IMG/VR virus record: IMGVR_UViG_3300027971_000009
Span: 1 to 35,533 of that record
Direction: 5' to 3' (one strand)
DNA length: 35,533 nt
Origin: a virus
Made by a program: the position numbers and the translations under genes. Below, in pieces: positions 2,876 to 8,211 of this stretch; position 1 is the first letter of the stretch, and the number at the start of each line of letters is the position of its first letter. The notes beneath the pieces are model-generated. The model was not told where the DNA came from. It ran no database searches and saw only the letters and a program-made list of their open reading frames with translations.

Positions 2876-3215
2876 TGGTCAAGTTAACTATTGATGGTTC
2901 ACTATCACTTACCGCAATGCTGAAGTCAATGCAAGTATAGGTATCTTCTCCTATGGTCAGGTCTTGCCTTGTACCATTTGGTGTATCAGTTGTTATCCAA
3001 AGAGTATAGCCTTGTAGTGGGTCAATCAAGACTCCTTCAATGGTAATGTTACCAAACTCATCACTAATGCTTACAAAGGTCTGAATGCGACCAGTAGCCT
3101 TATACTGGATGCACACAAGGTAAGAGGTATCAGGTGCTGCTACCCCAAAGGTCAGACCAGTAGCACATACATCTACATAACTGCCTGAGTCGTAACAAGG
3201 TGAACAAATGCTCAT
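2868..3215 (-). CDS. hypothetical beta-rich structural protein
   Basis: This 115-aa protein starts [20 protein letters not shown]. The start at 3215 was chosen because it overlaps the TerL stop as ATGA; the longer frame upstream runs inside TerL. The N-terminus has four closely spaced cysteines, and the rest is beta-strand-like with Thr/Asp-rich turns (YTLWITTDTPNG). The same Cys-rich, beta-sandwich flavour is seen in the tail proteins at 29715-31991. I infer a minor virion or tail component, with no specific family recognised. Confidence 0.65.
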   Translation of the reverse strand: MSICSPCYDSGSYVDVCATGLTFGVAAPDTSYLVCIQYKATGRIQTFVSISDEFGNITIEGVLIDPLQGYTLWITTDTPNGTRQDLTIGEDTYTCIDFSIAVSDSEPSIVNLTND

Positions 3216-4533
3216 AGGTATCGTTTTAAAATTGAATTCACAAAGTAACGGAAACAATCAAGAAAATCTGCTCTCTCTGATAAGTTTTTTCTATTTGATT
3301 TAATGATTCCACCATCAGCATTACATTGTACTTGTTTGGCATCGTACACGAACCCTTTACACTTAACAGAGTTAACCTTTACATCAAGACGAGTTAATGC
3401 GTTATTGCAGTCTATTCGACTATTGTAGTGGGTTGGATTCGCTGGTATGATTATCTGACTATCGGCAAGGTGCAACCTTCTTTTGATTTGGGTATAGGCA
3501 CTTGAGTTATCACGTTGTTGGATGCTTCTGCCATTACCCATTGCATCTCCAGTTATCCTTAGTAGACCACGAGGCACATTAAGACTTTCAACATAGTCAC
3601 AGAATGCATCAATGCTACCCTTATCTATGTTTATCTCACCAATGACTGAACAACCTTTAGTTGTGTGTTGCTGGATGATTAATGCTGAGAGTGGGTTGAT
3701 GTTGAAATCCACAGATACGAATACTGGTAGGTGAGGGTTAAGACTTAGTGAATCGTCAATGTGTCTATCGTCATCCCAAGCATATAGGAATGGATTGTTT
3801 ACCTCATCCATTACATCCCAGTCACCTTCTACGAATCTTGCATACTGAATTGGTGGTAGTTCTTTCAATGACTCAAGATAGTCTTGACTTATGTATGGGT
3901 TATCTGTGATGCGTGAATTGATGTAGCACCATTTCTCAGGTAGTGTGTTACTTCGCCATCTTTCATAGATTACTGACTTTACCCAATTGTTAGCTGGATT
4001 GCAAGTAGCCAAACATACTATTGGTGGTTGACCTTGTGCCTTATTCCAACTACCTATACGTTCTTGCACCTTGTAGAATGTTGCTTCTTGTAGTTCGTTT
4101 ACCTCGTCAAGACCAGCACCATTTACCTCAAGTCCTCTGAACCTATTCAAGTCTTTATCATCATCATAACTCTCAGCCATGAAGATTAACTCTGAGCCAT
4201 TGGTGAACGTAACTACATTGGTCTCACGATTCCATGAACTTATGTATTGATTCAATCCATCGTTAAGTATTGAACTGAATGATGGAAAGGTTGTACGTTT
4301 AAGGTCAGGCAATGTCTTACGAATGATTACCCATCTTGAACGTGGGTATAGTAAAGATAATGAAGATAGTGTTAGTAGTAACCAATATGTCTTACCACCA
4401 CGTTATTCTTTCCCCCTTACATTTCTGCAAGGGGCAACCATCGTATAGCACCACCGAATACAATAACCTTCTTGTATCCGTTGATAGCCATATCGTAGGC
4501 TTTAGTTTGTCTCTTAGTTAGTTTGAATGACAT
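3212..4533 (-). CDS. terL: terminase large subunit, interrupted in the Walker A motif by a 41-nt insert
   Basis: TerL is the ATPase-nuclease that packages phage DNA. The ATG at 4533 ([15 protein letters not shown]) begins 31 codons that end in GGAIR at 4441. The frame then meets TAA at 4419-4417. The rest resumes at 4399 with GGKTYWLLL and runs 395 codons to 3212. Joining them gives a 426-aa protein of normal size with Walker A GAIRGGKT, Walker [10 protein letters not shown] (about residues 125-133), CLATCNP, and nuclease acidic residues near 262 (SVDFN), 316 (TGDAMGNG) and 409/412 (DFLDCFRY). The downstream frame has a stop (TAA 4405-4403) just before it, so simple frameshifting cannot connect the halves. 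Translational bypassing, splicing, or a broken gene are the options. The TTG at 4312 cannot restore an ATPase. Confidence 0.9.
4400..4440 (-). other. 41-nt insert in terL with GAAA-tetraloop hairpin; candidate translational bypass element
   Basis: The insert lies exactly between Arg and Gly of the TerL P-loop. It is flanked by a 3-nt direct repeat ACG, so the boundaries can shift by up to 3 nt with the same result. On the minus strand it has a 6-nt spacer, a 9-bp stem (4434-4426 with 4421-4413, one G-U pair) closed by GAAA, then a purine-rich stretch GGAAAGAATAA before the codon CGT. The upstream codon is CGA; both Arg codons are read by tRNA-Arg(ICG). T4 gene 60 and mitochondrial byp elements share the general plan of matched take-off/landing codons and a short gap with a hairpin. 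Unlike T4, there is no stop directly after the take-off codon. The mechanism is inferred. Confidence 0.6.
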
Positions 4534-5038
4534 ATGCTTTGTTTAATCTCTTTATTGATGAAATAGAACAATTAAACATATCTGCTATAATTTGATTCTT
4601 TACTCCTTTAGATTTCAAATCAACTATTGCCTCAATGCCTTCTTTAGTTTGTTTACATCTATGATGTAAGTGTAGTCTATTAGATTTACTTAAACCTAAT
4701 TTATATGCGTGTAATTGATTCTCTGAGTTATTAACCCATTCAAGATTATCAACTGCATTGTTTAATTTATTGCCGTCAATATGGTTAACTTGTGGTTTAC
4801 TATATTCATTGTCAATAAATGCCATAGCAACTATCCTATGCAGTTTATAAGTAATTAGTTTACCATCTTTCATTATGGCAAATCTCTTATAGCCTTTGTT
4901 ATCTATTGCTGGTTTTAATATCTTACCCTTCAGTCTTAATTGATTCTTAGATGTTGTAACTATTCTATCAATGCTTCTAACATTGCCCAAGTTTGACACT
5001 TCGTATCCAGTCTCAAATACTTTCCATAACTCATTCAT
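4514..5038 (-). CDS. HNH homing endonuclease with NUMOD4 domain
   Basis: This 174-aa protein has an N-terminal NUMOD4 motif ([20 protein letters not shown], about residues 5-24) and an HNH nuclease core (LHRIVAMAF...[18 protein letters not shown], about 67-103). A C-terminal helix-turn-helix ([19 protein letters not shown]) probably contacts the DNA target. It is a free-standing mobile endonuclease gene lodged between terS and terL. Its start overlaps the terS stop by 8 nt and its C-terminal codons overlap the terL start by 20 nt, so it inserted without leaving a gap. Its position 73 nt upstream of the terL insert recalls T4 mobA beside gene 60. The likely target is an endonuclease-free terS-terL junction of related phages. 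Confidence 0.9.
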
Positions 5039-5477
5039 CTTTGTCTCCCTCAGTCCTTATGATAATCAATGGCTCTGTAGTATACATTGTACTTTCACCA
5101 TTGTTTGCCCATAACTTTCTTTGTCTATTGGCTAACCAATGCTTTGCTGCTGGTGTATCAGGAGGTAACTCTTTTCTTAGTTGTACTATCTGACCATCTT
5201 TAGTTAGTGCCTCCTCAATGATGGTTAAACCTAATGCACGTTTGTACATTGCCTTCGCCACTTTGCCGTCTGCATTCTCTTTCCCTTGCGTTAATGACTC
5301 GGAAAAACTCGGATAGACTTTCTTCCACTCATTGAATGTATCTTGATTTACACCAATGATTGTAGCCATTTGAGTATCTGTTAAACCAAGCAATGACATC
5401 TCAAAGACTTGGTCATTGAATGCCTCCTTATACTTAGTTGGTCTACCTACACTATTAGGTTCATCTTGATTATTCAT
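5031..5477 (-). CDS. terS: terminase small subunit
   Basis: This 148-aa protein has the characteristic N-terminus [10 protein letters not shown] followed by a helix-turn-helix ([30 protein letters not shown]) and [21 protein letters not shown]. This is the DNA-recognition subunit that brings TerL to the packaging site. The C-terminal part is acidic (RTEGDKDE). It starts within the HAD gene (8-nt overlap) and is followed by the HNH gene, with terL after that. Confidence 0.88.
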
Positions 5478-7356: not shown

Positions 7357-8211
7357 TTATGACCCACATTCAGACCATACTTCACAACTTTCACCACCAA
7401 GTAAATCAAGTTGATAGTTGTATACATCAGCATCATTTAAAACTTTTTTATTCCAGTTCTTTGATTGTTCTAATATTTGTTTGGCACTTCTATTATATCT
7501 AAAAAATGTTTTGTTATGACCTAATGGGTCTATTGGATATTTCAATTCCATTTCATTCATAAAATCAAATGCTGATGGATTCTCTTTTGCAATCTGAAAT
7601 AGTTTTTTATCTGATTTTTTCCAGCAAGTAGTACAATTTCCTTGATAACCTTTTAACTCTAATCTAAATGGCATTGACTTCCAATATAAATTTATCATAG
7701 GTTTAGTCATTGGTATCATTTTACTATTGATAAGAGGATAAATAAATCCCATTTCTTTTGCATTAGCATTCATTCTATCTATTTCATCTCTTCTTATACC
7801 TATAGCAGTATGATATGGTTGACCGCCAAACCAAACTTTAGCAAATGCTTTTATAGGTTTCTGTTTTAACTCCCTTGTGCAATGTGGTGTTGCTGGATTT
7901 GGAATACCATATTTTTTAATTATAGATTCAAATGGCTCTCCTTTACGTTTAGCATATTCAAAATTGGTTATTGTATACCCTGTTCCTTTTCTTTCTTCTT
8001 GATAAACCAATGCTTCAACCCAATGCAATTTCAATTCAAATTTAGTATCACATCTTTCAACAAATTCTAATGTTTGTTCATTTTCAAGTCCAGTATTAGC
8101 AAAAACAAATACAATGTTTTGATAACCTAATTCTCTATAATTATTTTTTAACCATTGAGCCATAAATCCTGATGTCTCACCACCAGAAAATGATACTAAT
8201 AAATTTTTCAT
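7357..8211 (-). CDS. PAPS reductase-like PP-loop (adenine nucleotide alpha hydrolase) protein
   Basis: This 284-aa protein opens with a PP-loop, LLVSFSGGETSGFMAQW (SGGxTS), which binds and adenylates through ATP. HCTRELKQKPIKAF, a hydrophobic core (YHTAIGIRRDE) and a Cys pair in GNCTTCWKKSDK are typical of phage PAPS-reductase-like proteins. Members act in sulfate assimilation, in tRNA thiolation or, as DndC, in DNA phosphorothioation. Here no other sulfur or Dnd gene is seen, so the reaction is open. It follows the DnaB helicase and a small Cys protein. Its base composition looks somewhat more A/T-rich than its neighbours by eye. Confidence 0.8.
   Translation of the reverse strand: MKNLLVSFSGGETSGFMAQWLKNNYRELGYQNIVFVFANTGLENEQTLEFVERCDTKFELKLHWVEALVYQEERKGTGYTITNFEYAKRKGEPFESIIKKYGIPNPATPHCTRELKQKPIKAFAKVWFGGQPYHTAIGIRRDEIDRMNANAKEMGFIYPLINSKMIPMTKPMINLYWKSMPFRLELKGYQGNCTTCWKKSDKKLFQIAKENPSAFDFMNEMELKYPIDPLGHNKTFFRYNRSAKQILEQSKNWNKKVLNDADVYNYQLDLLGGESCEVWSECGS

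Follow-up and report, generated by a model that had tools for sequence, protein, structure and literature searches.

Translational bypass, in which the ribosome hops over a non-coding gap in the mRNA, is very probably the best explanation for a 41-nt insert that divides the gene of the terminase large subunit (terL) in the IMG/VR virus record IMGVR_UViG_3300027971_000009, the whole 35,533 nt of which form the window analyzed here. On a broader scale we consider it likely that the insert belongs to homing cassettes that are widespread at the terL P-loop of phages probably of Bacteroidota, where inserts of 4–42 nt in several diverged terL families would be tolerated by hopping, including natural 6-nt stop-hops that a hairpin immediately ahead of the take-off codon would drive.

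The terL gene lies on the minus strand, and direct reading shows that the insert (4440–4400) splits the Walker A motif of TerL into GAIR and GGKT, with the coding sequence continuing behind it at GGT 4399 (GGKTYW). The upstream frame ends within the insert at a TAA (4419–4417) and the downstream frame is shut by another TAA (4405–4403), the two frames having no overlap. If the insert is removed, exon 1 (31 aa) and the remainder (395 aa) give a TerL of 426 aa. This split and the full-length protein restored by removal had already been proposed in a preliminary description of the window, and the coordinates and stops given there were confirmed. All other positions are collected in Table 1.

The same element recurs in other viruses. 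The exact 22-nt hairpin of the insert occurs in 16 other contigs, and in 14 of these it interrupts a diverged terL gene at the same joint; inserts of 39, 40 or 41 nt stand at this joint in dozens of IMG/VR contigs. Since identical hairpins stand at one joint of diverged genes, the insert is, as far as comparison of sequences can tell, neither a product of chance nor an assembly error. In order to obtain an unbiased sample we seeded protein searches only with the sequence downstream of the joint, which gave 234 terL loci. From these, 195 are uninterrupted, which is the precise absence in relatives that the preliminary description had suggested looking for, and 39 carry the insert, its length being 39 nt in 21 and 41 nt in 18 of them; a 40-nt form is known from locus L102. 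As these lengths fall in all three frames the insert is not read as codons, and as they keep no frame only its complete removal restores TerL. Exon 1 is intact in all insert-bearing loci with a ratio of nonsynonymous to synonymous substitution rates (dN/dS) of about 0.13, and downstream of the joint the median dN/dS is 0.035 in insert-bearing and 0.036 in insertless genes. The 22-mer was also seen at intergenic terminator-like positions of two unrelated contigs (L002, 2877–2898, and L010, 780–801), a likeness that is probably a convergent terminator sequence. One contig of 52 kb, IMGVR_UViG_3300044695_002763, holds two insert-bearing terL copies (L339 and L342), suggesting an over-length or concatemeric assembly.

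Two RNA hairpins accompany the insert. The one inside it, described beforehand as a 9-bp stem with a GAAA loop, was confirmed: the 47-nt hairpin region has a minimum free energy (MFE) of -16.7 kcal/mol (z = -3.9; as stable in 0 of 200 shuffles), and 25 distinct inserts all retain a stem of 9–10 bp and a GNRA loop while the sequence of the stem varies. This covariation amounts to 40 two-sided changes and a score of 0.465, compared with at most 0.066 when the partners are slid against each other. RNAalifold revealed another hairpin, which lies in exon 1 and ends shortly before the take-off codon. It had been overlooked in the preliminary description, as had the short-insert relatives and the role of the neighboring HNH gene as part of the unit, both described below. 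Over the 17 pairs of this 5' hairpin, 97% of cells are paired in 31 distinct exons with an insert and 59% in 133 exons without, and the mean MFE is -22 and -10 kcal/mol, respectively. Synonymous randomization lowers the pairing to 78% (maximum 82%), column-wise synonymous shuffles reached the observed pairing in 0 of 2000 cases, and the hairpin also covaries among insert-bearing exons. Among the exons compared the 5' stem-loop is confined to insert-bearing genes and missing from insertless relatives. In L441, where exon 1 is of the local type, a different 5' fold of equal stability is found. A conserved 3' stem-loop after the landing site was looked for and not found. The peptide encoded by exon 1 of these loci shows no peculiarity beyond that explained by the RNA stem, the stimulatory nascent peptide of T4 being KKYK.

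For the codons at both ends we used the unique loci of the unbiased sample (35 with and 143 without insert), which share ancestry and are therefore not independent draws; loci from a pattern search with CGA fixed were excluded. The take-off codon is CGA in all 35 insert-bearing loci and at the same position in 49 of the 143 insertless ones, and the isoleucine codon before it is ATA in 35/35 compared with 54/143. The nearby GGN and GCN codons vary in insert-bearing loci, unlike CGA. Landing codons are CGA (14), CGC (11) and CGT (10), and never AGA, AGG or CGG. CGA, CGC and CGU are the set expected for tRNA-Arg(ICG) by established wobble rules, which agrees with the earlier proposal that one such tRNA could read both the CGA exit and the CGT landing codon. 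A tRNA-Arg(acg) is present in one metagenome-assembled genome of Bacteroidota, the putative host group. That no stop follows the exit codon, as stated in the preliminary description, holds for the window, where the next codon is TGG, and for the 41-nt class, but not for most 39-nt forms, which have UAA or UAG directly after the take-off codon, nor for a 42-nt form described below (UGA); some forms have UGG or UGU and then an early stop.

Directly upstream of terL, an HNH gene is present in 17 of 33 insert-bearing and in 0 of 146 insertless loci (Fisher, 4.6e-15), an association that is retained in an independent-pairs sign test respecting the tree (median p 0.004). In the window this gene is placed at the terS–terL junction, with terS as the gene before it and its 3' end overlapped by exon 1; the record holds one NUMOD4-HNH locus of this kind and one terL-like locus. 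On the tree of the downstream terL DNA the insert state changes 29 times, at least 17 of these changes being forced by supported branches, which argues that the insert is mobile and has been gained many times. Insert-bearing genes and their nearest insertless relatives share a mean identity of 92.0% after the joint and 69.6% in exon 1, whereas pairs of insertless genes share 91.7% and 92.0%. From a diverged exon 1 in front of a near-identical downstream part it follows that exon 1 and the 5' hairpin travel with the insert and that the native gene resumes right after it. Judged from sequence identity, this is the pattern predicted if the HNH gene, the insert and the exon 1 between them home as a unit. 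The claim of a new bypass site in a packaging gene is strongly supported by comparison as far as its byp-like nature is concerned, on account of the precise absence in relatives, purifying selection on both halves, the codons, both hairpins, the frame-agnostic lengths and the HNH cassette, but the site is not isolated and rather a mobile hotspot in multiple lineages.

This hotspot extends to two further divergent terL families, where the inserts at the joint differ and measure 4, 6, 7, 41 and 42 nt. A covariance model built from the two hairpins was searched against 68 loci (67 neighborhoods of related HNH genes and T4) and matched two of them, L275 and L280 (E 5e-4), which belong to a different terL family. 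In the L275-type an HNH gene 43% identical to that of the window precedes terL, and in L275 UGA comes directly after CGA, then an 11-bp stem closed by a GUAA loop, and GGT GGA AAA is reached after 42 nt. Relatives of the L275-type TerL carry at the same joint an insert of 41 nt whose hairpin has a GCAA loop (L538), 6-nt inserts of the form CGN-stop-CGN, a 7-nt and a 4-nt insert, and in this family an HNH gene stands beside terL in 5 of 13 insert-bearing and 0 of 57 insertless loci (p 1e-4). Scanning with the pattern GG-GCN-ATH-CGN-TRR-NNN-GGN-GGN-AAR, which leaves the landing codon NNN free, gave 40 terL contigs, and in all 40 NNN is CGN; the stops are UGA (34), UAG (3) and UAA (3). TerL of this 6-nt class is constrained (median dN/dS 0.068). 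In 13 of 18 distinct exon ends a 5' hairpin forms with a folding energy between -22 and -36 kcal/mol across 60 nt. At the CGN-stop-CGN sites of L599, L624, L629, L630 and L608/L621 no strong hairpin of this kind is present, and the hop may be driven there by something else. The 4-nt insert, CAGC after CGA, is present in L523 and L524, the former with an HNH gene 165 nt upstream, and may reflect either a hop of 4 nt to AGC or a +1 frameshift that inserts one additional serine. TerL of the Flavobacterium phages FPSV-S27 (L641) and lotta8-2 (L642) is similar to the L275-type TerL only beyond about residue 186, suggesting that they have the nuclease half in common while the ATPase half has diverged or been exchanged.

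The anatomy, conservation, covariation, selection on TerL, HNH association and mobility are read from the sequences themselves, and from them we infer the hop, the part played by each hairpin and the HNH cut site as follows. The element would be a mobile homing cassette whose scar in the recipient gene is dealt with by the ribosome rather than spliced out. Ribosomes would read exon 1 up to the arginine codon CGA and stall there, held by the hairpin that closely follows in the mRNA and also, in the many relatives that have one, by a stop codon in the A-site. The peptidyl-tRNA-Arg would then let go of CGA and the ribosome slide or hop 39–41 nt forward, a movement that would be aided by refolding of the 5' stem-loop behind it, until the tRNA re-pairs at an in-frame CGA, CGU or CGC and GGKT completes the P-loop. 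At the DNA level the upstream HNH endonuclease is proposed to cut the uninterrupted terL P-loop, whereupon repair would copy the whole unit, from the HNH gene through exon 1 to the insert, and the cut site would be abolished by the insert.

Among the other explanations a minimal intron, spliced from the mRNA by some splicing activity, survives best, although we regard it as unlikely. The precise absence in relatives, the structured RNA and the adjoining homing endonuclease, as known from mobile introns, would all suit it, but 39–42 nt is far below the size of any known self-splicing intron, neither group I or II introns nor any other Rfam family matches the insert, and no RNA ligase or splicing gene was found among the window proteins scanned with PHROGs. 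Moreover, splicing gives no reason to expect in-frame CGA/CGH codons at take-off and landing or a stop in the A-site, and the inserts of 4, 6 and 7 nt, which share the joint and likewise occur with HNH genes, are impossible as introns. Termination and re-initiation, giving two polypeptides that assemble into TerL, could draw on the stop codons of the insert and on a purine-rich stretch before the joint. It is nevertheless highly improbable, as the split would cut the P-loop between the conserved GAIR and GGKT, the window has no in-frame ATG, GTG or TTG ahead of GGKT, initiation at the first start further down (TTG 4312) loses the motif, and the matched CGN codons and the 5' hairpin are left unexplained. 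Equally hard to maintain is stop read-through or frameshifting that would make the insert part of an extended P-loop: for the 6-nt class, reading with two extra residues is conceivable in principle, but this class uses all three stops, the lengths of 39, 40, 41 and 42 nt demand different events, the two frames in the window do not overlap, and extra residues would break GxxxxGK[TS]. A broken terL, from a defective phage population or an assembly error, is already close to refuted. The two in-frame stops and the shifted frame in an essential gene speak for it; against it stand the recurrence of the element, with compensatory base changes, in dozens of independent contigs, strong purifying selection on both gene halves and the lack of another terL-like locus in the record. 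Inserts of 4–7 nt are too short for introns, read-through would break the P-loop and re-initiation would split it; hopping from an Arg codon to a second codon accounts for all classes.

Several observations weigh against bypass or against parts of the model. A nascent-peptide element like that of T4 was not identified, and the 41-nt class has UGG or GGU and not a stop after the take-off codon (with GGU, a stop comes one codon later). The landing codon is AGU in L275 and AGA in L538 and not CGN, 5 of the 18 distinct exons of the 6-nt class have no strong 5' hairpin, and the matched codons could partly reflect the origin of the insert. About half of the insert-bearing loci lack the HNH gene, which requires loss as explanation, and Bacteroidota as host would follow from distant terL hits only.

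Table 1: Features of the terL locus in the window.
Feature	Position	Strand	Description
terL exon 2	3212..4399	-	395 aa + stop; Pfam Terminase_3 / Terminase_6N
Non-coding insert, 41 nt	4400..4440	-	putative bypassed gap including landing codon; exactly absent in 195 related loci
Landing codon CGT (Arg)	4400..4402	-	direct reading
Take-off hairpin	4413..4434	-	9 bp, 4434-4426 with 4421-4413; GAAA (GNRA) tetraloop 4425-4422
Take-off codon CGA (Arg)	4441..4443	-	direct reading
terL exon 1	4441..4533	-	ATG 4533-4531 to CGA 4443-4441; first half of Walker A; 31 aa
5' stem-loop within coding sequence	4445..4491	-	outer AUGGC/GCUAU, inner 9 bp; ends 1 nt before take-off codon
NUMOD4-HNH endonuclease gene	4514..5038	-	174 aa, putative homing endonuclease; Pfam NUMOD4 1.9e-10, HNH_3 2.2e-10
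terS, terminase small subunit	5031..5477	-	148 aa; phrog_309, E 4e-39

Elsewhere in the window (7357–8211) a phosphoadenosine phosphosulfate reductase-like gene (phrog_424) was seen, an auxiliary metabolic gene. Searching 395 Bacteroidota genomes with the covariance model and the stop-hop pattern gave no match and thus no host or prophage example. A genome-wide hairpin pattern was also tried and rejected, as the 80 stretches inspected from 118 matches were terminator-like chance matches and none was in a terL P-loop. Named phages had nothing homologous to the insert region, the nearest TerL being 24–34% identical, and six cultured phages (five of Bacteroides or Flavobacterium and one of Cellulophaga) each have one uninterrupted terL. 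No published account of the terL insert element turned up in our literature search.

To our knowledge T4 gene 60 is so far the one well-studied bypass outside yeast mitochondria, and the terL element would add a new variant, apparently a widespread one, to a very rare type of decoding. It offers dozens of natural variants at one codon of an essential enzyme, together with insertless sister alleles, three gap frames and stop-hops, so that the rules of ribosome take-off, sliding and landing become testable through comparison. It also suggests that homing endonucleases may be mobile on the back of ribosome hopping; if true, hopping would be a recurrent counterpart of introns and inteins for them and not a T4 curiosity. 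Gene finders will have annotated such terL genes as broken or truncated.

Stop-hops in synthetic E. coli constructs, where 9 nt are read as one amino acid and for which no natural in-frame example was known (PMC5009743), have exactly the layout found in the 6-nt terL relatives (CGN-stop-CGN), but the terL sites are natural, lie in an essential gene and often have a very stable 5' hairpin. In the Streptomyces phage Hau3 a bypass is likewise suspected in a terminase gene (cited in PMC5009743), although that candidate is tied to UUA decoding and has a much shorter gap, and no HNH cassette or GNRA hairpin is described for it in PMC5009743. The 81 byp elements in the mitochondria of Magnusiomyces capitatus (PMC5009743) also interrupt essential genes with short blocks over which the ribosome passes, in many cases between matched codons; they belong to yeast mitochondria and apparently depend little on mRNA context, whereas here one phage gene, conserved hairpins and an HNH neighbor are involved. 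T4 gene 60 with its 5' stem-loop, take-off stem-loop, matched codons and adjacent stop (PMC11194080; T4 record) shares with terL a non-coding gap that has to be removed for one protein to result, a 5' stem-loop ahead of the take-off site in insert-bearing loci, a take-off stem-loop with a stable tetraloop (here 9–10 bp, GNRA and covarying) and matched codons (here CGA to CGA, CGT or CGC, except in L275 (AGT) and L538 (AGA)). The stop after the take-off codon is shared by most 39-nt forms, the 42-nt L275 and the 6-nt forms, and not by the window. In T4 a topoisomerase gene has a 50-nt gap between Gly GGA codons, with a UUCG loop and a hairpin enclosing the take-off codon, whereas here the P-loop of terL is affected, the codons are Arg CGA/CGN, the hairpin has a GNRA loop and begins 5 nt after the codon, and a short run of 7–9 nt leads from it to the landing site. 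The mobA/byp arrangement of T4, discussed in PMC5009743, is a parallel to the cassette of HNH gene, exon 1 and insert, given an HNH gene tied to the insert, co-transferred flanking DNA and many gains. The HNH protein of the window has no significant similarity to T4 MobA, of which T4 retains only a 37-aa remnant. In distinction from T4, the terL element is widespread and demonstrably mobile.
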